NCBI GenBank assembly: GCA_036874045.1
Contig: CM072336.1
Coordinates: 26,053,501-26,117,500 of the forward strand
Reading direction: 5' to 3'
Length of the DNA stretch: 64,000 bases
From: Cymodocea nodosa
Lineage: Eukaryota; Streptophyta; Magnoliopsida; Alismatales; Cymodoceaceae
Shown here piece by piece: positions 3,784 to 64,000 of the stretch (positions within the stretch are counted from its first letter, which is position 1; every line of letters begins with the position of its first letter). The position numbers and the translations under genes were made by a program. The notes beneath the pieces were generated by a model, which searched no databases, had not been told where the DNA came from, and saw only the letters and a list, made by a program, of their open reading frames with translations.

Positions 3784-5954
3784 GGTGGAAAGGTGAGGGA
3801 ATGGGGGTGTGCGTCAATGGATATATTAGGATGTGGGTGATACAGAAGCATGTTTTTGTTTTTTTTCCTTGTACCAGATATTGCAACATTTTTTTTTTTT
3901 TCAATATTAGGGCTTGGTTTCGAACTGATTGTGGTTTATGGCCTGTTTCTTCCTAGCGCTTGGAGCATTGAACGCCTTTTAATTTTGATTTCAGCCAATG
4001 TACAGATTCATGACTGAGTGCTTGTTCAGTGTTATATTTAAGCCGAAGTTCATAATCTAATTTACATTGTATATTGATCCACCTTATCTTCACAATTTTC
4101 TGAAGGTAAAAAATTGTTCTTCCATATACTTATCCCCAAATTTGGGAAAATTGCATGGCAATTAATTCAATATTATTATTTCAATGAGGTGGACTCCCAA
4201 GCAAGTAGAGATTTGTTGAGGAAGCCAACTTGCAGATGCAGCTTTGCATGACCACCCAAGAGTTCTAGGCTTATCACCAACTGGTGATGGTTTCAGACGA
4301 AGGATTTGAAGATCTTAATCTTCAGAAGACATCCAATAAGGGTCAACCACCTTTTAACTACTGGCAAATTCAAGTAAGACCATGAAGACCTTAACTCTCA
4401 ACCAATGTCGGTCAGGGTTAGTCTCCCTTGATTATCAACAATTTTAAGCGAGGATGTGAAGACCTTGAACATTCAAAAAAAATCTAAGAATGGTCAATTG
4501 TCTTTGACCATTGCCAGCTTTAAACAAGAACGTGAAGACCTCAACCCTCACATGTTTGAAAACTTCGAACAATGTTTGATTGCCTTTAATCGTTGACAGT
4601 TTCAAACAATATTTTGATGGCAGTTATCACTCCCTACCTCAAAGGAGACATATGACAACAAAATTTCCCTAATTGTTGAAAATAATAGAAATGGAGGTGA
4701 TGATCATGGTCGTTGACTGGCAATTTCCACTCTCTTCCAAACCAAGATCGATCGGATCATGCTGCTCCTTCAATCTACTCAGCTTGGTCTCGCTCGATGG
4801 TTGGTGACTTGAAAAGTTTCATGAGCATAAGCTGAGAACTTATTCTCCCCCCCCCCCCCCCTCCTTCCCACTATTTATAGAGATCGATTAATGCTTCTCG
4901 ACCACTAGACAAGATGTTGGGTGCTTTTCTCCTACTCCACACTTGCCTAGTGCAATGCATTGCCAAAATTGATGTAACATCGTTAGCTATAAACACCACA
5001 GCAAATGTAAAATTGTGATGTTAGAAGTACACCATATAACCTGAACTTTATCAACCATTCATCCAACCTAACATATATTACAAGAGATCGTTCAATTCAT
5101 CCAATTGACCATCGATATAACCAATTCTACCCAACGAGAAGAACAAAACCCTTATAAAATTTGTGGAAAAGTGTATCGTCGTTGTGGAGATGTAATGGAA
5201 ATTTAAGTTTTTATTTATTATTATATTGATAATGTTCTTGTTTGAATAACTTTCTTTGAATGAAGACCTTCTTCACCGATTATACCATTGTGTAGCAGAA
5301 AGTAAAATTACACACACGACAAATAAGGAGTTGCGTTAAACATAAACTTGTGTATTTTATTATTTATATCTTCATGCAGAAATAAGGAGTTTTGGCGCTA
5401 TTTCATTGTGTTGCTAGTGTAATAAGGAAGGCAATGATGGTGTGAGTGCTTGGATGCTCTTTGTTGTATACTTTGAGGTTGAATCATGAAAGTGGAGGTT
5501 GTTGATCTTGAACCACGGTTGAAGTCTTACCTGACGTGAAATATATACTTCATGGAGGATCAAAAGGACATAGGCTTTAAATTTGATTTCTGATTCTTTG
5601 TGATCGGCCCATTCGATGTTACTGAAACTAACATCATACGCTTGTGGTTATTATTTGGGACTTAATTTTTCCCAACAAGGTGTAAGAAAAATTCAGTAAT
5701 CACCTCATAAGATCATATAATATCAAAATAGTGTTCTGCACAACCATATAACCCTAATCTTTTTCTAGCATGGCCAAACAAAAATGTGTTACAGATCCTC
5801 AGATGTTTGCATACAAATGCATTGTACACAATATAACTAACCATTAGACACACCAGCAAACCTACATCTGAAGGCGCCAGCCAATGTTTATAGTCTACTC
5901 TTCCAGGTTTTTATGTTGAGATATTCAGAGTTCTGTGGATTGCATATCACCCCA
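3784..5954. other. Spacer between bS20c and the GT92 gene
   Basis: The 3' UTR of bS20c occupies roughly the first 250 bases. The rest holds no gene I can support. It contains the ~75-bp tandem repeat listed separately, a C homopolymer at about 4849-4861, and AT-rich DNA. The 3' UTR of the convergent GT92 gene probably takes up the last few hundred bases. Confidence 0.6.
4309..4612. repeat. Diverged ~75-bp tandem repeat, about 4 units
   Basis: The recurring anchor (T/G)GAAGA(C/T)CTTAA occurs with AAGAYC starting at about 4309, 4385, 4459 and 4535, so the period is 74-76 bp. Units also share a following CTCAACC/CATTCAA-like segment and a TTGACC..TTTAA(A/G)C segment before the next anchor. The copies are much diverged, so this is an old minisatellite or the remains of a repeat-rich transposon or LTR segment. 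Confidence 0.7.
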
Positions 5955-8900
5955 TCATATTTCCAAGTGTACATCACTCATTGTTGGTGGCGACAACGGC
6001 GGTATGGCGGGCTGGTGGTCATTGGTCGCCTCCAATATCCTTCTTGAAGCTGTCTTAAAAGCTCCTTTACCAAATTTCCTCATGTGTGTAGCTCGGGCTG
6101 TGTGTGACCCACTTGAGTTTTCATTGGAGGCATCAGAAGAAGTGTTCAGCTGCAGGTGTTGCTGCATCGAATGTGACTTTGCAGCTGATATAATAGAGTT
6201 GTATATGCCAGACTCCCTCAAACTTTGAATGATGGTCTGCAGATGTATTTCATAGATTCAAACTCCAGTGTTATGGAATTCTAATCACCAAACAAAAAAA
6301 GAAATCACGATACATAAAAAATCCAAGAGTTACCATTGGAGCATATATTCGGGTCAAGATGCCCCTCCGAAGAAGCTTTAATTTAAGTTGCTTATCAGTC
6401 CAGACGACACGTTCGCGAAACCTGCATGTAGGGGGAAACAAAAAAAAAAAAAAAAAAAAACTTAGAAACAGAACTATATTCCATATCCATGGATTAGTGA
6501 TTCAAACACAAGGGCAAGTAAAAGCAGAAATTCATTAACGAAGAGAGATTACGGTACCAGCGGAACATTTCTTCTTCCGTGGCGGTGGATGCGATGATGA
6601 AAGCCTGAAATATAAAGAGAGAATTTGACATGAAACAGCATAATGGCGTGTTCCTTCAATTTAGGAGCTTCTGTAAATCCTGGACATGATGGCATTCGCT
6701 TTAGAGTTGTGTGTAAACTTACAGCTCGGTCAAATTCTAGCATGAAGCATCTCTTCACATCTTCCTTTGTTGGTTTACACCCACACCGATCGCGTCTAGA
6801 TGTCAGGTCAGAAAACTTTGTGTATGTGAAATGCAGAACAGCAGCTTCCTCCAATTTTATCTCACTGTGTCACACACGAACACATATAGCCATCAATCAG
6901 TTAATTAGTTAATCCATGCGATCCACAAATATATTTCTGAAAATAACCAACATAGACCAATGAATCCATCATGACACGTGACAGAAGAAATATTTGGTTT
7001 GAAGATAAACATAACCTTTGAATGAAAACCTACTTTGGTGTTTTCATGTAGTTGTGCCATCTGTGTGCACCATTAGGGCGAAGATGATCTTGAAGTCGCG
7101 CAGCTGATTTTCCATTTCCGTAAGTTAGGAAGTAATTGGGATTACCACGTGTTGCTTCCTTGTACAAGCTGAAGTAGGTTTCTTTCGTCAAGTGATCATA
7201 GTTCTTTTTGAACATAGACACCTGTTGATAAAGGGATTACATTGGCAAATTTCTCATTGATAATGCACCAAACCAATTGATACACATCCTAAATTATGCA
7301 TATATGGTATGCTTTACAATGTTTCAGTTGAAGCTCTTCTTTCTGGAGGACAATTCCTAATCACTAGACAACTTTTTAGTTATTTACGGTTAGCCTCCAA
7401 CCTTGATCAAACCATCCATTATTGAATTAGTACCTGGGCTAAATTCTATACATAAGTGAGTGTAAGAACTTAAATGTACTTTATCCTGGAAAATCGTTGA
7501 AAAAGATCAAATAAATGAGTACCTCGCCAAAAGGATCCTTTATGTCTTCCCGTTCAATACTACTCTCCTATAGCAAAGAAAACACGGCTAAGTTTATTGA
7601 TGATATATTACTTTGTGGAAATGTTACCATTTAGTTGTTTAACTTACATAGTTGGGGAAGACAACCATATCAATATTCCCAGGGACTTCAGATAACAACT
7701 GCCGCAAGGAATACTCTTTGGCACCTGCTGGATGCATGAGCTCATCTGTGTCCAAATGGATTATCCAATCCATACCAGCATCCTATGGATGGACAAGAGA
7801 TGTAATAATTAATCATAAGAGTGACGAATATCAAAAACACAATAACCAGGATGGTAATAAAAAATGAATTTTGAAATTTAATGGAAGCTACTAAAACGCT
7901 ATTGGATAAACATCATTAAACTCGACAGGCTCTTTAAAAACACAATCAATGATGACAACAATGGATCACAATTATTATGACTATCAACCCCCATTAAGTT
8001 GTAATCTTACCCGTGCCATGACAATTGCCATCTCCATGTTAAGTGACTGCTTCACAAATAATTCATAGTTACATGGTTTGAAGAAAAAATTTGAAAGCCA
8101 CGTCTCGTTCCATATGCGACTGCAACACAAAATGTTGGTAACAATAACAATTTAAGATGATGCCCATGTTGAACCTATTCTACTAAATCTATTCATTTGT
8201 TTATATCAAAATATTCAAAGTTCAATATGTATGCTATCCTTTAGAGTACAAAAATTGATAAAGAAGTAAAAAATAACCTTGTTGATGAAAAATGACAAAT
8301 AATTATACCAACATAATAACAGAATTATACCAATGATACATGCTTGCCAAATAAATAAAAATTTAAATGCTCAGTATATTTTGTTACCATCCTGGGAGTA
8401 TATTGACCCATGCATACAAAATAACCCTTGATACTTAGTAAGGCTTAACTATTACTAATATAAAAAACCCATTATCTTGGAAAGAACGATCATCAAACAA
8501 GACTAAAACCAATTTTGTACATAGAGCATTCAGATAAAAACATAATCACGAACTACAGAGCACAGTAACCATTTTCATTCAATGGAAGCCTAATGGCATA
8601 GATGCCAGAACAATGCTCTAGTGGTATGTATATTTGTGTGTGTGTGTCTATATGATAGATATCTAGTACACTTTGCCTCACAATTATACTAAGTGAGGCC
8701 AAATCTTCTCCATCAATTTGATCAACACATTAACAAAACCACTTAACAAAAAAAGGAGAAAAACAAATAAAATTATTTTTAACAAGGATAACTTTTTTAA
8801 AAAAAATTATCCAAATTTGGTAGTGACCAATTAGCAACCGATGACACTAGAAAGATGGTGGATATCAAATAAAGTCTGTGGTATCAAAGAACAAATCTAA

Positions 8901-21190: not shown

Positions 21191-42488
<21,298 letters not shown>

Positions 42489-45560: not shown

Positions 45561-45840
45561 ATTCAAACAAAAAAAATAGACAACTAGCATCAAAATCTCT
45601 AGATTAAGTTCCCTTCTTCGCTCCCATTCCACGGCTAAAATGACAAACTTAAAGAAACAAAAAGCGAAACGAACAAAAGAGGCAGAAACCAAACCCTTGA
45701 ATTCAAACAAAAAAAATAGATAAATAGCATGTAAATCTATATATTAAGTTCGCTTCGTCGTTCCCATTCCACGACTAAAATCACAAACTTAAAGAAACAA
45801 AAAGCGAACCAAACAAGATTGGCAGAAACCGAACCCTAGC
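45561..45840. repeat. 140-bp tandem duplication, two units
   Basis: ATTCAAACAAAAAAAATAGA starts at both 45561 and 45701, and the two units stay in register at a constant 140-bp offset to the end: ..CCCATTCCACG(G/A)CTAAAAT.., AACTTAAAGAAACAAAAAGCGAA.., GGCAGAAACC(A/G)AACCCT. The copies differ at only a few sites, so the duplication is fairly young. The right unit ends at the stop codon of the small acidic-protein gene; the duplicated piece is thus essentially its 3' UTR. Confidence 0.9.
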
Positions 45841-48096: not shown

Positions 48097-51000
48097 TTAT
48101 CCACTTGGCTTCAATGCTGTGGCATCTGGTGAGTTGGCTAACCCACCTTTCGCTTTCTCTTCCAAGAACTCATCACAGTCAGCTCCCTTTACTGTAAATT
48201 CCATCAAGAGTTCTTCATAAATCACCCTCAACGAGTTTTTGAATGTACTCGAACAGCCCTTATCACCCAGGTCGACATCTTGAATGCCCTTTTCATCAAC
48301 GCACCCAACCTGAGCACCATTCATGTAAGCCTTGCATGCAGCTAGAATGTGACGCCCTCTCTTGCAGAAATGCCCAGATACAAAGCACTCAAAGTTCTGG
48401 AAGCACATAGGCAATTTTTAGGAAGGGTTAAATGAAGAAAACACGGGTACTTTCATTTATGCCATACCAATCAAGCTTTTATTAAGTTCATACATAAGCT
48501 CTAAAACGATATAGCATGAAAACAAAACATAAACTACCATGCCTTAACCCCACTCTATTGTGTTAGCTTCATATCAAGATAAATGATTCTCTGCTCCATA
48601 GGATGCACCTGAAGGTCTTCTCCAAAAAATGTTGGCAATCTTAAGATTGAAGTTTATCATTTTTCTTGCTAATCCTTTCCCACTGAATCTAAATCTTGAC
48701 TGATCACTATAAATACCTTTCTTAAATGCAGATATGATGATTCTAATTAAATAATAAACATCATAAGCATATGAAAAATAAATACCATTTGACCCTATAT
48801 GAGTTCCTCCAAGATGTACAACCTCATGCCCGGCCTCATAGATTAGGGAGATTATATAATTCACTAATGGACATTGGGGTTGAATGCTTTTACTCTAATT
48901 GCATCTCTTAGGCCCTTTTAGACTTTTTAGTTATTGTTTTTGTCTTGTCTTGTTTAGGTGGGTTTGCCCACCTTGTGGGGTATAGGAATGCTAATAATTG
49001 CATATCAGTTTGAAGTACAACTTACCCATCTTATGTTACAACATCTTTTTTCAGTTGCATTTTCCTTTTGAACAAAAAACAAATTTAAACAGAATACTTC
49101 AAAATGTTACCGAACAAAAGCTGCTGAAGTGAATTCCAAAAGTAGAATGAAAGTAATGTGGTTAGACAATAACCTACCTTTGGTGGCCTTCGAATTGAAT
49201 ACATCATTGTCTTGCATGATAACAAGAAAACCTCTTCATTATAAGCCACCGATTTCAGCTCCCCTTGAATGCTGCCGACTGAAGTTGCATAACAAGGTTC
49301 ATTGAAATATGGTTTTGAATTCAAAACTAAACCCTGGATAGAAACCAGGACCTGCAGTATGGTTGATTTGCCTGGGTTCCATTTCTCACAACCATTGCCA
49401 CCCCAAGTGCCAAGTAGGCTAAGGCACACCTTGCCGCAATGATACAAGTTAGGATTCAAACGTAGGCCACCAGAGTGGTAACTCACTAGCTACACAGATA
49501 GAAGATGAAGTTTGTGAATGATTTCATTTCATCGATCTAGCTAGAATTGAATAAAGTAAGCATAGATTAGAAAAGCAAATCACCACGTACTGGAGGTCTA
49601 TTGGGATAGGTTGCAGGAAATAACACATCAAAAAAGAAAAGTCCATCATGATAAGGAGTCCCAGCTGGTCCAATGATGACAGCTCTTAGAAGATCCATTC
49701 TCAATTCACAAGTTCTAACATATATTGACTCTGTTGAAAATCAGAAAGAGAAGCAAATCAATAACTTTTAATAGGAAATGAGAAATTATGGTTCCTCAAA
49801 TAATTTTATCCAAATAATAGATGAGCAAGATTAATAATACATGGTGACAGAAAACCTGAGGAAAGTCAGTGAACACAAGCATGAAAACTGAATTGAAATT
49901 GTCTTGCTTATTTGACTTCTAGCACCAACAATATTAAAGAGAGTTCACCAATATCATGCACTACAGTATGTTCAGATGTATACTCACCTGGCAAGTCACT
50001 TTCCAGTATCTTCCACTCATATTGAATCCTCTTTGCCCACTCCTTCGGTGGCTGCCATTAAGAAATTATCACACAACATAAATTTAAATTGAAATTGTGA
50101 AAATTTTGAACTACATGCCTTTTGAACTTCATAAGTGCCTCCACTCATTGATTTTTGTTGGACATAATAATGGTCGGAAAAATCCTGAACGGTATCAAAT
50201 TGTTTGAATTCACTGTAGCATTTCAGAGCTTCCACATCTTTCACTATTTTCTTCGATGGCTGTCATAAGAAATTATTATGCATCAAACATAAATATAAAT
50301 AGAAAATGCGAAAACATTGAAGTACACACCTTTTGAAATATATGGGTAAGTCTCTTGGATTTTTTCTGAGCGTAATGGTGGTCAGATAAATCCTGAACAG
50401 CATTAATTTGTTTAAATTCACTATGGCTTTTCAATTCCACATCTTCCACAATTTTCTTGCTGTCATTCTCAGGTTTCTGCAGCCATGGTACAGTAACCTC
50501 CACTCCTGGAGGCAGGCGCATATCATCAAATTGAGCAGCCAAATTAGAAGTACTGGCAATTGCATCATCATCATCATCATCATATAAATATTCCCCAACA
50601 TCCATTAAAGCATCCTCATCATCATCAGAGTCAATTATGTATCCATAATCCTCAGCATTACCATCACTTGAGTGAAGAGGCACAAAAATTTTGACGTCAT
50701 GGCAGTTACTAGAACCTGTAGGATTTTTGGATGAAACATTCTGAAAGAAGAGCATCAAAGTAAAAAAACATGTCAACTGTTTGATAAGTTATATTGAAGC
50801 AAAGTTCTAAATTTTTTTGCAAACCTTAAAATGCTTCTGAGAACCATTGCCAAATACCATAGTTTGCTTATTCTTTCAAGGAATCAAAGAAATTTTGAGA
50901 AAAGCAAAAGCTTTGTATCAGAAGATTACAATAACTAGTTTATCACAAACTAAAGGACTAAAAACATTCAAGTGAAAAAACCAACTTAAACCATTTAAGT

Positions 51001-54000
51001 ATTTGACTGAATCACTAAATTGACTATTAATCAAGGTATTTAGTATCAGTATCATTTTGAGTATCAGTGTATCAAAAAAAGTAGAGGTATCAAGTATTGG
51101 TGGAAATTTCAACAGAGCTAGGACAAAGTCACAGAAATGTTGAATTTCAAAGGAAAAATCAAAATTTTCAACTTGAAACTCCAAGATAAAACAAAACAAA
51201 TTATAATAGGCATTTAAAATCAATTAGATTTAATTTTTAGACAATTATATCGAAAAAATTATATACAATGAATTATACAGTGTAGACGTCCACAACTAAA
51301 CAATAAAATGTAAAAAATAAATTATGACATACCAACCTTGAAAAATACAATTTAATACCATGTGGATTGTCTAAGGGGAGGGGTCATAGTTATTATCGTC
51401 ACCTTCTAGATGCTGTTAGCATAGACACACAAGTTAGACATACTTCATATGACTGTCTAATGCTTCTTTCCATTCTCCAAAATAAGTCCATAACGTGGAG
51501 TGACATAACATCTCCGATAGTAGATAACTATCTCATAATATTCAGTACTGGGTGCATTCTGGAGATAACTCACACATGGATAATGCCGTTTATATCCTAA
51601 AAGCTTTTTTACCATTTTTCTATATATCACCATCCTTTGTCTTTGATGGTTGTCGTGTGCTCTCTAAATGATAATCAAATTGATAATAAAGACTACCACC
51701 AAATGAAGTCTAGTTATATAGATTACAGGCGTTCATTCCCCCATTGATTGTGCTAAGTTTACATCTTCCACATCTGTCTGTAGTTCTTTTCCTTTTCTTT
51801 TGTAATAGTAAGAGAATGGTACAAAAAAATGAAAACTACAAAAAGGAATATAATCTGCAAAAAATCGAAAATTACAAAAAATTCTGAAATGAAGAAAAAT
51901 CATCTTAGATCTAAGGTAACTAGGTAATATCTAGCCTAAACATGAGAAACACTTAAGAAGAGTTTAGAGAGAAAGTAGAGAAGAAGAGAGAGAGAGGGGA
52001 TAGAAGAGGGTGCTGGTGGTGCTGGTACTGCAGAAACATTTGTCTTACAAGTATCCACTAAAATTTCAGTATTCTTAGTTGAAATGGCATTTTAAAGACA
52101 TGATATAGGGTCACATGTCAAGATGGACCAATATTTGTCGAAATATTGTCTGATCCTATGCCGATGCCAATAAGGTGGACCTTATTAATATCAACCCACA
52201 GAAGATCCAAAAGTATCAGCGAAATATCACCGATATGCCTTGATACAGAAATTCAGCTATTAATCACATCTTTTCATTTGATAATCTTAATCAGTTTATT
52301 TTCTATTTGCAGCCTTGTAGCATGTAAATTGAAAGTTTGTAACCTTGATCAACTCTAAAGGAATGTTTGGTTTAGACCATTTGATCCAATTATGAGACTG
52401 AATATAAAATAACCACATGCTTTTTTGATATAATGCATGTTGCAAAATTTCGCTAGCATGTGTCATTTTTTGAATTGTTGAAATGATATCAAAATCAATA
52501 TTGACATGGTTATATGTTACCAAAAAGTGATTTTCTTTAGCATATTTCCATCAACGAACTTTAATATTACAAAATTTTACCAAAACATGTCATTTTTTCA
52601 ACTTACCAAAGTCCAATACAAAATTGAAGTTGAATTCCTTGTGCCCATAATCTACATAATCAAACTTTAGCCCACTTATGAAATTATGGATTCAATTAGG
52701 AGTTTTCCCTCTGAAATGCTTGCACAACCTTGGTCTTAAGTGTCGCTAGTGCAACAACGCAGAAGATGACAAAAGAAGCGTACAACTAAGCAATTATCAC
52801 AATTATTAAAAGTATCTAAGCTTCTAAAAATAGGGCAACAAATCATGCTAAGTTAGTATGTTGCACCTTCACAAGCCTTGTTTTAGGTTACAGAAAATTG
52901 GTAAGTACTAGGAAGTATCTATTTTCTCTATCCATATTTCGTATGGATCATATTGGAAGCAACATGAGTTAGATCTGGAATGTTGAGAGCGAATCATGCG
53001 TATCATGGTGCCAAGGTGCCTTAGGCAACCAGACAACCAGGCGGTGAAGACTAGGTGAAATTTTTTGATATATATATAGTATGTTTTTATTTAAATACGT
53101 CAATTAAATTTCGTAAATAATACCAACAATCACTAACATATTAGCCAATAACAAAAAAAGTGTTAAGTTTGTTACCAGACGTTTCAAGAAGTTCCTAACA
53201 ATTGTAAAAATTAAAGAAAAAGAAAAATATATGAAGATTGAAGGAGCCAAACAATTGAAAAAGATCTACAAACACGTTAATAATATAAAAAAGAAAAAAT
53301 TAAACAAAAATGTGTAAGCATGTGGAACTAAAATGAAAATAATTGTAATACTGAAGCCAAAACATATTGGTGAAACAAAAACGTAAAAAATAGTAAAACA
53401 ACAGTTACAGAAAGTTTTTACCCGAAAACAGCATAGTAAAGTGTACCAAATGCCTTCCGTCCATGTGTGCGTAAAGTTAAGCACGTGTGATCAGTTCATA
53501 GGGATTATTCAATCACATGCAATGTCATAGCAGAAGAACAACACCAAAGCAGTGTGATGCAGTGATGCCTGAGAATAAGTAACCTTGCAGCACCAAAAAT
53601 AACACCTTACAAACAGCACCAAATAAGTGACGCATCTCGATCTAGTCGAAGCAACACAACAAACCCAAAATCCCAAGATGGGATCCAGCCTTTCCTCGAA
53701 CCCATCAAACACCCAACATCCCGGGATCGCAGAACACAACGAAACCCCCGCCACCAGCCAAAAAGGGAAAGTAACAAATAACAACAGCAGCAAAAACAAA
53801 GATCGCAACTTCGATAGACAACTACAAGTATCCTCTGTTTCAAAATGAAATGGTAATAATAAAACAAAAAACAGCGAGTATTCTCTAACCTTATCCCGTT
53901 TCCTTTTCTGCTGGCTACTCGACGCCCACGACGACGACGACGACGACACCAGCACCACATCCTGGTCTTCGAATGGGGCCTCCCTGCACCACCGTCAGGC

Positions 54001-56402: not shown

Positions 56403-59400
56403 TCAAGTGGAGTCGTCTGGTTCAAGAACCAGAGTTGGCTGGTAATCCAGAAACTGGCTGCAGTTAATCCCTTTTTCTGCGAAAGCCGAGACAAGCTTTG
56501 GAAAAAGCTTAGAAAGCATGATTTTGAAGCCAGCGGAGGTGGTTCTCTGACCTTCAGCTATTACGTCATTGCTAGCAAATTCATCACTGACATGTGCGCT
56601 GTCCATATATGCTTTGCAAGTTTGAAGAATTTGATGTGATCGAGAAGCAAAATGTTCCATAACAAGCTCTTCAAAATGCTGCATGACAGAAGAAAGCCAA
56701 ACTGTGTTGGTCAAGTAGCTAATTTGACAGCATTGTTGCATGTAAGCCTATAAATGGAAAAAGTTCATGTTACAGTTAATTAGCTATGAGTGAAAAGATC
56801 TAACGTTATATTGATAGTATAAATTTCCTTCCTATTTTTAATATGAGATTATTCTGATACTTCCTCATTTATAGTCTTCTTTCAAGTCTTACAGTTACTT
56901 TTATTTTTAAATCAGATGGATGTGTAGGGATTTAAGCTCAGAAGACCATAATAGGCTTTATTACCATAATAAAATATGGGCATTCAACTCAAAACCAATT
57001 GGATGTTCACATTTCAATAATTTGTATTTGCTACCATTTCAATAGTTTGTAGTAGGGTGTTCACATTTAATGTGGGTAAATGTATAATTTTTGTTAACGT
57101 TGTTGTCGATTTAACTATCTCTTTGGCTAATTACTGACAGGTCTATCATTTAACCCACAATTTTACCTGTTAATATGAAGGATAAGAATAAAGGTAAGTA
57201 TAAGCCAATTCTATACTCATCTCATTTACAAACGTAAATGTGATGGGCCACCTAGAGATGCCTAAAAAGAGGTTCATGGATCACAATGGTATTTATTTAC
57301 TTTTGAGTAAGGTTAAAATTCTATTTACGGTATTTACCTTTGGAGACTTGTGTAGCTGGTACAGCATTGACTTGCGAGATAGAAGGAAAGCATTCTCGTT
57401 GTAAGTAACAGAGTTCTTTTCTCCTTCAGCTCTACCAATTTGTTTATCGTAACCGGCTTCATTAAAATATGGTTTGTCATTTAGCACAAGTGCTTGAAGG
57501 GACAAGAGGACTTGGAGAATGTTTGAACTTTCCGGGTTCCATACTTCAGTTCCGGTGCCAGTCCATGTATTAAGGAGGCTAAGACATACTTTCCCAGATT
57601 CATAGAGGTTTGGGTTCAAGCGGAGGCCACCAGAGATATAGTATACTAACTGCAAAGCAAGTACAGATCAAAAGGTTTATGATTTGCTCCGCACAGATAT
57701 AAGGAAATTTTATGGCACAAGGTGTTAAATTATTTATTTGTAATTATAGATCCTACCATACATGCATTTGCATGAATAGTTAAGATTAAAAATTAATGAC
57801 AACTAAAAAAATATTATGATACTCATGCGGGCACAATAATCATATTATATGTATATCGGATTAATGTACACAAGAGCTTTCCAAGAATATAAAGTAATTT
57901 GGAAAGCCTTTCTTCCCTCCATTAATTTCATCTTAGCACTACATTTTCAATTTAAGGAATGGTCTATGAGAGCATGCTGAAAATCTAGCACAAAACAAAA
58001 ATTAAAATATTTAATATGCACTAAAGCAAACATTAAAATAAGAACTAGGTTCAGATGATAATTTTTATTCATGTCGATGGATAGATCTTAGAGTATGGTT
58101 GCAAGACAAGTGTCCTGAGAATAAAAATCACGGAAATATTTCAGTACCGGTACAACAAGCCCAAACTGGAATAACAAGTCAAATTCCTACCATCAGTATC
58201 TGACAGAACAGAAGTACGACTTTTTGCCAGAAAACAAGCCTAAGGCTGCTTGGAAGATCATATAAATAACAATCAGTAATACCACAATAACAATCAATAT
58301 TGATCTACCATGTGGGTCAACAAAAATCCTTTCCTTCCTAATCCCACCCATCACTAAATATTTTGTTAGATCACGCAATTTGAAATATTTTTTACTATTT
58401 TAACCCAAGTAGTTGTTTATCTTCCCCCAACTCCTAGTTCCACTTAAATTTATTAAACATTTTTTTAATTATAGATGCATCTATAACAGGTACATTTATA
58501 AGCCTTATATGGACTCAACTAAACCATCTGAGATGTTTTTGTCATATTATACTCAATTGGTGTAAGTTCGGTGAGAATTCTAAAACATTCAAATAAAATC
58601 ATATTTTATGTCGTAATTTCTGCAACACTTATTTTTTTATATATTCATATTTGACAGTTCAACACTCCATGTCATAAAGCATAGTTACACAAATGAATGT
58701 CACGTAGCTATTTTCTTTTATTTTTAGGAACATTTTTCATCACACAATATTCCAAATGAATTTCTCTACTTTATTCAACATAATTTAGTTTTACAGACAT
58801 TTTCAGTAATTGCCCCGTTGCTGCTTATCATAGATTTTAAGTCTGTAAAATTTTTACTTTTACGAATCTTGTGACCATTTACTTTTATGCCTTGCACCCT
58901 TATTATTATCCATGTCAATTTGTATTCCATATATTCAGTCATGGTATATTGCTTAGTGTCAATCTTTTTTGCTTTATCTCTTCATAATTCTATTAAGAGT
59001 TAATTTCTACTTTGTGTCATCTATAAATAACATATGCCAAAAAATTTCTTGTTAAAGTTCTTTAGTTATTTATGTAATATAACAATCAGCAATACTTTAT
59101 TAAATTAGATGACAATAAACTGGACTAAACTAGCAAATTACCTATCATCAGATGGCCAAAAATTCAAATTACTTACAGGTGGTTCATGGGGATATTCAGA
59201 AGGAAGACATATGTCAAAGAAGAAAAGAGCATCTTGGTAGGGAGTTCCAGCTGCTCCAACAATGGATGCCCTCAAAAGATCCATTCTTCCTTCATAAACT
59301 CTCACATAGATGGTATCTGTTGAAAATTCAACGCATATACTTAATAATCTCAAAACAATAATGAAGAAAAAAAATGCCACAAGGTTTCAAGTATGCAGAT

Positions 59401-61934
59401 TCAATAGTCTCATGAAAAGTGCAACTTCACTCAAAATTCAAATGTACGTTAGCTGTATTCTGTAATTAACCAAAATATAAAATTTTCTAAAAGATTTCCC
59501 AAACTACCACACAAAAAATACATAAGGATTTGATATAACTCTTGCATGTTTCTCTGATATGTGAAACTAACATATGATACATCTTGGAATTGATTGATGG
59601 GACCATACGTAATTAGCTTGCATGTCATTGTAAAATGTTTAATTGTCACGTATGTCATTGTAAAGAATATTTATTGGTATGCCCTCCTAAAAATTAAATC
59701 TTTTTAAAAATTCCATCACGATTACTAATTGATAAGATGGATTAAGTTAGAATAAGATGATAATAGAGATAATTTCGTAATTTCTCAAGTACGTAAAGAA
59801 ACAACCCAAAGTTAAATATTTTAACATATAGTCATGTTTTAGTATGACAAACCAATAAAAAGATATTTTATAGTGAAATATGTAACAATATAGGATTTTA
59901 CAATGATGCATGAAATTCCAACTCAAAAATAGTATGAGAGATTCATCATTTATTAGTCTTCCACACTATCAATGTAGGATTATTTCAACATTCTTCCTCA
60001 CTTATGATTTATTTTATGCCGGTAAGTTTTTTTTTTTTATTCAAATAAATGTATATAAATTTGCTTTGATATCATGTGAAATTTTAAATTAAAATCAATT
60101 GATATTGAGTGAAAAGATATATCATATATTAGTTTAAGTTCAGTCTTTACATGATCAATGTAGATTATCCTAACGACATGCAATTAAAAGAATCCTAAAA
60201 ACACTAAACAATTGTTATTAATCCAAAAGATGCACAAGTAACAAAGGCCAAACTTGTAATAATCAGACAACTTCTGTCTTTACTTGTTATATCAATCAAG
60301 TCTACACTAGAAGCATAATGACACCTCAATCATCCCTGCAAGTTCAGAGTTTTATGGTCCAGGGATAATGCGGTAGATATAGTTTTATCTTATGAAATGC
60401 CTTTTTCGGTAGATAATATGGGACTCAGAACGATTCAACTTAGTGACATGTACCATGTCGGGAGGTGAAGCTGCAAAGTTGTAATTTTTTGGATCTTAGC
60501 ATCAACGAAAGGACAATAATTCTAACATAAGATAGTTTTGTCTTCAGTTGTTTTATCAATCAAGTCTACACTAGCACCTAAATCATTGCTGCAAATTGAG
60601 AGTTTTATGGTTTGGGGATAATATGATAGATGCTTTATCAAAAGGTAGTTGGTATTATCTTATAAAATGCCTCTTTTGGTAGATATTACAGGACTTGAAC
60701 GATTCAACTTAGTGACATGTATCTTTTTGGGAGGTGAAGCTCTAAGGGTATAATTTTTAGGATCTTAGCATCAATGGAAGGACAATAATTTTAGGATGAC
60801 CTAGCTTTTGAGAAAACATGAAAGAGGCGCTAAAAAATAAAATGGCAACAAAGTGAATGAGTAATTTATTTACAAGAGGATTGAATTGAAGGAAAAATAT
60901 AAAATATGATTATCCAAGAACATCGTGTCCATGCATTATTAATTAACAATTTCACAACTGTGACCTAAAGGACTTCCTGAGTTCTTAGAAAACCATATTC
61001 TAATTTTTTTCCCCTTCAATCTATGCCCAGATTATCATAATAATTTCTTAAGTTCAGGTACTCATGGTGTAGAAAGAAACAAATATCAAATGATAATAAT
61101 CAATGTAAATAATATAAGGAAATTTCATTCTTTTTCCAGACTTGAGAGTGAATAACCTGGGAGATCTTTTTCTAGGATACTCCATTCTTGCTGGATCCTT
61201 CTACACCAAGATCTTTTCATCTGCAGAACAAAAAAAATCTAATTTTAATAAAGGTAAAACAGTTTCTTGAAGAATGTGGAGAAAAATGATAAACTTCTAA
61301 CCTGGGAAGAAATCAATTCCTTTCCACCAACACCAACAAAATGATGGTCTGAGTAGTCATCTACCGCATCAAACTTCTTGAATATTTTATTCACATTCGC
61401 TGGGGAATCAATACCCAAGTTCACTTTTCTTGAAACCTGCTTATCTACATGTTCTGTCTTAAAATCTGGCTTGAAGGATAGCTTTTCATATTGATTGAAG
61501 TTTTCTGTGCTTTCTAAATCGTGTGATTCTACATGTGAATTGCAGTTTCTGTCAGGATCATCAGTATAACCATTAGACAACAAACTTGAACCATGAAATC
61601 CGAAATATCTTGCAGCAGATGTCATAATGAACCTAATTGTTGCAGGAGGAAACCAAAGAGAACTAGAAGAAAAAAGGTACTCCATGCACTCTTCCCTAGA
61701 ATCATTTAAGTCCAACTCCTGCAAACAGAATTCACAATTAAGAGGTTCCATGTGAACTTAAAATGAATAGCAACTAGGTAAACAAAAAAATATTACCTTT
61801 TGTTTCTTTTGGGATGATGGTATTTCCTGGTCAGGCATTTCTTCACTGGTTCCCTCAATTTCTTCACCATTGATTAAAGAAATTGCAGTATTAACATCAA
61901 AATTTTCTATACCAAAGACTTCAGATGGGTTAAC
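56403..61934 (-). CDS. Large E2 ubiquitin-conjugating enzyme, copy 2 (5' end outside the window)
   Basis: The tandem relative of copy 1. Exons found, in transcription order: 61934-61797, 61718-61302, 61220-61157, 59316-59177, 57649-57338, 56678-56403, giving 448 codons plus stop. Earlier exon(s) are needed because the first block begins at an acceptor in phase 0 without a start, so the gene runs off the right edge or starts in an exon I could not see. The three core exons have exactly the same lengths as in copy 1 (64, 140, 312 bp) with the same phases. The catalytic cysteine is in NLYESGKVCLSLLNTW (codon near 57586). A single SDHH-type box (DAVDDYSDHHF) precedes the UBC domain. The N-terminal part (VNPSEVFGIENF, ECMEYLFSSSSLWFPP) is unlike copy 1, and the tail EPDDST differs. 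By eye about two thirds of residues match copy 1 in the catalytic exon. The duplication is therefore old. Confidence 0.88.
58640..59075 (-). mobile_element. RTE-type LINE fragment in E2 copy 2 intron
   Basis: Minus-strand readings in several frames match plant RTE: a MLFIDDT-like piece near 59020 (usual MLFADDIVLV), YMEC-like remains, then VNGHKIRKSKNFTDLKSMIS, SNGAITENV and FGILCD near 58650-58850. It parallels 29620-29940 in NFS2 intron 4. It is truncated at both sides and frame-broken. Confidence 0.65.
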
Positions 61935-63632: not shown

Positions 63633-64000
63633 AAGGTATTTAGTATCAATATTGCATCTGGTCTTATAGAAAAAAGACACGTATCAAATATCAATGGAAA
63701 TTTCAGTAGAGATGGTACAAAGTCATGAAAAAGTAAAATTTCAAAGGAAAATTCTCAAATTTCAACTTAAAACTCTAAAATAAGATAAAAAGAATTATAA
63801 TAGACATTTAAAATCAATTAGATTAATTTTTAGACAATTATACAAAAAAGTGTTGTTTCATTTTACGGTCCATAACTTGTAAATAACCACAAAATTAAAT
63901 AAAAAAATATAACTTAAATTAAAAAAATATCATTCAATACCATGAAGGGAGTCTGAGGGGGGCTCATGTTTATTGTTGTCTCCTTCCAGTTGTTGTTATT
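63633..64000. repeat. Repeat shared with E2 copy 1 intron 2
   Basis: The partner of 51033-51420, same orientation, extending to the window edge. Key shared strings are AAGGTATTTAGTATCA, TTTCAAAGGAAAA, GACATTTAAAATCAATTAGA and CAATACCATG. Where it ends is unknown. Confidence 0.75.

Follow-up and report, generated by a model that had tools for sequence, protein, structure and literature searches.

A tandem exon and intron duplication that may place two boxes ahead of the UBC fold in a PHO2/UBE2O-like E2 gene

The window analysed here, a stretch of 64,000 nt (C2:26053501-26117500) in a 374.6-Mb genome of 28 contigs whose genes suggest a flowering plant, contains two related E2 genes, called hereafter copy 1 and copy 2. 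Copy 1, the gene under study, lies on the minus strand, and window coordinates are used for all its exons. The ATG of MVFGNGSQKHFK is probably its start. The features are the following.

50825..50860, minus strand: first coding exon (assumed start), MVFGNGSQKHFK, with a GT donor, read and translated
50330..50740, minus strand: exon 3, acidic N-terminal region with box A at its end; AG acceptor, GT donor, frame 0 open
50330..50458, minus strand: exon part of duplicated block A (KKIVEDVE...SDHHY...QK), from the unit and codon alignments
50260..50329, minus strand: intron A, 70 nt, GT-AG, from the alignment and the reading of splice borders
50119..50259, minus strand: exon 4, 141 nt or 47 codons, encoding block B with box B; phase 0 on both sides, AG acceptor, GC donor
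50251..50259, minus strand: opening 9 nt of exon 4, CCATCGAAG, similar to the start of exon 5, CCACCGAAG, and read as the duplication breakpoint from the junction alignment
50052..50118, minus strand: intron B, 67 nt, GC-AG, a copy of intron A, from the alignment and the reading of splice borders
49988..50051, minus strand: exon 5, where the UBC fold begins (PPKEWAKRIQYEWKILESDLP), from translation and Pfam
49591..49730, minus strand: exon 6, UBC fold, from translation
49178..49489, minus strand: exon 7, UBC fold with GKVCLS, the catalytic-cysteine site by homology, from translation and homologue searches
48097..48396, minus strand: last coding exon, C-terminal region and stop, from translation
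61302..61718, minus strand: box exon of copy 2, with a single box, given for comparison, from translation and a profile search

Exon 4 begins at 50259 and block B proper at 50253. All internal borders of copy 1 have AG acceptors and GT donors, the sole exception being the GC that follows 50119. Once joined, the exons give one frame of 467 aa with GKVCLS intact, which confirmed both the phase-0 borders of exon 4 and its open frame, as proposed in the first-pass annotation.

Copy 1 is, by its sequence, a PHO2/UBE2O-like E2 of the group XI type, an assignment to the class rather than to a given UBC ortholog. Its top PDB matches were the UBC domains of UBE2O and BIRC6 (E 6.7e-48 and 1e-45), and Pfam reported UQ_con (E 3.4e-21) starting at residue 204, so that the N-terminal extension ahead of the match is about 200 residues long. 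Exon 7 encodes GKVCLSLLGTW, a GKVC(L/V)SLL context that is also present in the UBE2O alignment of copy 2. The plant group XI E2s named in PMC4641371 are UBC23/PFU2, UBC24/PHO2, UBC25/PFU1 and UBC26/PFU3. Copy 1 resembles them as a large E2 with an N-terminal extension and a UBC fold of the UBE2O/BIRC6 type, but differs by the doubling of the box that precedes this fold. UBE2O and BIRC6 (9mcb, 7un6, 8gxr, 3ceg and others) are the best solved relatives of the catalytic part.

The unit formed by the tail of exon 3 and intron A (50458-50260) and the unit formed by exon 4 and intron B (50259-50052) are tandem copies. Their local alignment spanned 219 columns, of which 160 were identical and 16 gapped, and scored 198, whereas the maximum reached by 1000 dinucleotide shuffles was 44 (mean 26.4) and the best tile elsewhere in the window scored 54. 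The earlier claim that the end of exon 3 and the whole of exon 4 encode the same block twice thus holds in coordinates and in content. The exon parts shared 99 identities in an alignment of 135 columns, 6 of which hold gaps, and, as had also been noted, the following introns align as well, with 53 identities over 71 columns, 5 of them gapped. Each of the two exon gaps spans 3 nt, and the intron gaps span 4 and 1 nt. The pair was recovered by self-BLAST of the window (73.7% over 228 nt, E 3.9e-31). The copies lie about 205-211 nt apart, and a repeat search found separate ungapped pieces at a spacing of 208 to 211 nt. The adjacent exon and intron copies are therefore above chance in the alignment and in self-BLAST, and the copy is in frame with functional-looking splice sites.

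Seven direct-repeat pairs with a spacing under 1500 nt, including the one in copy 1, were detected by self-BLAST of the window at E <= 1e-8 and a length of 60 nt or more, so that tandem duplication of 100-300 nt is an ordinary event in this window. One of the pairs (60272-60524 and 60536-60793, 75.9% over 270 nt) sits in the long intron of copy 2, bounded by an exon end near 61158 and an exon start near 59317. Another (45561-45697 and 45701-45837, 87.6% over 137 nt) adjoins the end of a small minus-strand ORF.

Inspection of the junction revealed how exon 4 may have been formed, and placed a breakpoint in exon 5 that the first-pass annotation had not mentioned. Exon 5 starts with CCACCGAAG; exon 4 opens with 8 of these 9 nt, where it is unlike exon 3, and then tracks exon 3 from AAGAAAATT. 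Because exon 4 begins like exon 5, one break is placed in exon 3 and the other 9 nt inside exon 5. The simplest reading is that the duplication had its breaks at an AAG in exon 3 and at an AAG nine nt into exon 5. The ATGACAGC directly before the AAG of exon 3 resembles the end of intron A, a likeness that could have aided misalignment. The tandem duplication would have covered some 205 bp, from within exon 3, through intron A, as far as the ninth nucleotide of exon 5. Because this segment contained an acceptor toward its far end and a donor midway, one step would suffice for a complete phase-0 exon of 141 nt together with another short intron; on these borders, the new exon and intron were evidently created by a single event. 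Both borders of exon 4 were automatically in phase 0, since the duplicated intron was itself in phase 0, and they are by themselves no evidence for a cassette. The in-frame junction within exon 4 had a one-in-three chance. The case illustrates at the base level how a small duplication with breaks inside two exons can give rise to an entire additional exon in frame.

Duplication of exons in tandem is an established type of event (Kondrashov and Koonin 2001, as cited in PMC2674458). Copy 1 conforms to it in having a neighbouring in-frame copy of an exon and intron that could be spliced in or out. It differs in that the piece copied comprises just the end of a longer exon and 9 nt of its neighbour, and in that the new exon owes its existence to the breakpoints. 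A mutually exclusive use of the boxes was considered and rejected: box A has no exon of its own, and shares one with the acidic region, so that such use is unavailable through a simple choice of exons. Among the open-access texts, as far as these could be seen, a literature search returned no paper on a doubled box or on exon duplication in a plant E2.

A search of the genome with exon 7 gave four family genes at E <= 0.001: copy 1, copy 2 and one gene each on C9 and C13, the last three sharing 61% to 65% identity with copy 1. A profile search counted two boxes in copy 1, one in copy 2 and one in the C9 gene. Boxes A and B aligned with each other, in agreement with the first-pass annotation that an SDHHY-type box stands twice before the UBC fold. 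Its companion statement, that copy 2 and the other family genes have a single box, stood for copy 2 and the C9 gene, the two of the three other family genes in which a box was found. The UBC exons of the third, the C13 gene, lie at about 5027-7453, plus strand, of locus L028 (C13:20011500-20021400), and motif, tblastn and profile searches of about 15 kb upstream revealed no box exon (best E 3.7, the level of chance). This exon may be further off or lost; the gene is possibly truncated, or has a very long intron.

No further boxed family member was found among 13 other UBC loci fetched from 65 listed UQ_con matches (best box E 0.79, as expected by chance). The remaining matches were covered by genome searches of limited reach; one of them, run with box A plus the acidic region, did not return even the box of copy 2. 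A homeologue of copy 1 on C9 was rejected, as the expected 7 kb contained no copy 1 exon (best tblastn E 1.8).

Outside the catalytic domain, no other piece is as well conserved as the box in the four copies compared. Nine columns, all before the UBC fold, are invariant across A, B, copy 2 and C9 (S1, K3, F16, K17, V22, D24, S26, D27 and H28, numbered after the first alignment row). Three other positions vary, reading I, N and L in box A, F, D and F in box B, and F, D and Y in copy 2 and C9; box B also has a Y where box A, copy 2 and C9 all have H. The distance to the UBC fold is about equal for either box placed next to it. No Pfam model or solved counterpart of the box was found, Pfam covering residues 204-329 only (UQ_con). 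When the box and UBC fold of copy 2 together served as the query, the matches at E <= 1e-30, UBE2O and BIRC6 among them, stopped short of the box in all cases (0 of 19 extending to it), and the box and linker alone gave two matches to unrelated proteins (E 0.12 and 0.87). We suggest that the box may be a short linear motif that docks with a partner or with the UBC fold. Two natural boxes in one gene, with the key residues kept in both, provide a ready-made test of the role of the box, of its number and of its distance to the UBC fold.

Blocks A and B were then compared as codons. Over 43 codons they differ at 31 of 129 exon sites, with 13 silent and 18 replacement differences distributed as 14, 4 and 13 over the three codon positions (9, 1 and 11 in the core). 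NG86 estimates were dS 0.93 and dN 0.195, a dN/dS of 0.21, and dN reached or exceeded dS in 0.06% of 5000 codon bootstraps; with a transition bias of 3 the values became 0.59, 0.213 and 0.36. For the 34 codons of the box core, ending at ..KS, the ratio was 0.115, and for the last 9 codons 1.06; no constraint is visible in the 14 residues past the core (1.06). The differences being mostly silent, A and B diverged as coding sequence.

Several controls limit this conclusion. Random changes simulated from either block left the frame free of stops in 28% and 22% of runs, and with such a chance of meeting no stop the open frame of exon 4 is weak evidence by itself. Replaced residues numbered 16, for a mean expectation of 20.3, and as few were obtained in 3.2% and 2.7% of simulations. 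Tests on silent counts, whose P ranges depend on the transition bias assumed, rejected the hypothesis that both copies were unconstrained (P 0.0005 to 0.0099 for the core, 0.003 to 0.040 for the whole block), and weakly disfavoured one unconstrained copy (0.016 to 0.14 and 0.08 to 0.39, respectively). Between introns A and B, 13 of 66 sites differ, a divergence no higher than that of the exon block (31 of 129), which makes the constraint look weaker; the difference from third positions (13 of 43) was not significant (P 0.25). Coding constraint since the duplication, as read from these substitution patterns, is well supported for the A-B pair though not for each copy separately.

The silent divergence of 0.93 between A and B is near the 0.88 found for the box exons of copy 2 versus its C9 paralogue (58 codons), the UBC exons of these two genes giving 0.40; with 24 silent sites these figures are rough. 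The duplication thus looks old, not recent, in which case relatives should share the two-box structure. Divergence between the copies ruled out a recent slip as the origin of the second block. Tandem repeats are general trouble spots for assemblies, and the second block could in principle be a misjoin, or lie outside any gene. However, differences at 31 of 129 exon sites, together with gaps, are far beyond those of a duplicated read or an allele, and a genome search with the 435-nt region, which skips common words, matched a single place, so that the same DNA is present once in the assembly. No observation spoke for an artefact or a false gene model; we give this explanation next to no credence, and the divergence between the blocks largely rules it out.

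Our preferred reading, which we hold to be probable, is that of an old in-frame tandem duplication whose new exon and intron were kept open as coding sequence, exon 4 being mostly included, so that a two-box protein is made, perhaps with incomplete inclusion. It is favoured by the alignment score of 198, the match at the breakpoint, the dN/dS, the nine invariant columns, the 467-aa frame and the kept spacing. Against it stand the weak one-copy tests, the ratio of 0.36, the divergence of the introns, the chance of a stop-free frame, the 14 unconstrained residues and the GC donor. Exon 4 would most likely be included in the main mRNA, and the protein would carry FKx[FI][DN]xVxDxSDH twice, in a flexible segment linking the acidic N-terminus to the UBC fold. 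The two boxes could do the same binding job twice, or one of them could be free to drift.

The GC donor of exon 4 (AAG|GCATGT) was absent from the first-pass annotation, although no other feature has a closer bearing on the cassette proposal made there. GC donors are a known minor class and are often constitutive, which speaks against using this one as a sign of regulation. Its predicted U1 pairing was -4.3 kcal/mol, versus -7.6 for the donor of exon 3 and -8.4 for exon 4 if it had a GT. The ranking of these energies is weak evidence, since two GT donors of copy 1 are also low, those of exon 6 (-2.5 kcal/mol) and of the first coding exon (-4.9 kcal/mol). If exon 4 were skipped, a frame of 420 aa with one box would result, in frame with the UBC fold. 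Skipping of exon 4, or retention of intron B, is possible, and the GC donor would make alternative isoforms of copy 1 more plausible.

Exon 4 could be a regulated cassette whose GC donor lets tissue or condition decide between skipping and inclusion, a reading that we regard as unlikely. The 420-aa and the 467-aa forms both keep the frame of the UBC fold, the pairing of the GC donor is weaker than that of exon 3 or of a GT at the same place, and, according to PMC2490688, GC donors are over-represented among genes with alternative splicing in human, nematode and Arabidopsis, with one regulated exon of C. elegans let-2 under GC donor control. Two GT donors of the same gene, however, pair no better or little better, and in rice the skipped form was the minor one in 61.0% of cases (PMC1769492).

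Intron retention, reported as the commonest kind of alternative splicing in Arabidopsis (PMC4128822), would give a third outcome beside the cassette, a truncated form, because it leads to an early stop. Retained intron B, whose 67 nt are not a multiple of 3, would put a stop at codon 230, and retained intron A one at codon 167, both ahead of the catalytic site. Exon 4 or intron B might be an inefficiently spliced relic, mostly mis-spliced, the useful product being the skipped, one-box form and the rest being truncated and degraded. These early stops, the very short length of both introns and the compatibility of the rate tests with relaxed constraint on one branch all fit this proposal, but box B keeps the F and D of copy 2 and C9 where box A has I and N, which makes B, within the box, more typical than A, and the frame, the acceptor and the in-frame gaps survived considerable silent divergence. 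We consider such a relic quite improbable.

Under the preferred reading of a mostly included exon 4, the GC donor would probably lower inclusion below completeness, with some one-box or intron-retained transcripts. A more speculative proposal, which we rate as very doubtful, is that the change from GT to GC made exon 4 a switch, by which the lineage would set one or two boxes through regulated splicing and so tune the hold of the E2 on a substrate or on its own UBC fold.

Two further similarities were observed around the family genes. The regions upstream of copy 1 (51033-51418) and copy 2 (63633-63998) are 72% alike over 388 nt, which may either go back to the duplication that produced the two genes or represent a repeat. 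Two segments of the window (26346-26696 and 29151-29691) belong to a dispersed repeat common to the C13 and C9 loci, 71-77% alike, and probably a transposable element. It was matched in L028 (3590-4144), L037 (1306-1486) and L047 (6589-6916), and its L028 copy lies immediately upstream of the first UBC exon of the C13 gene.
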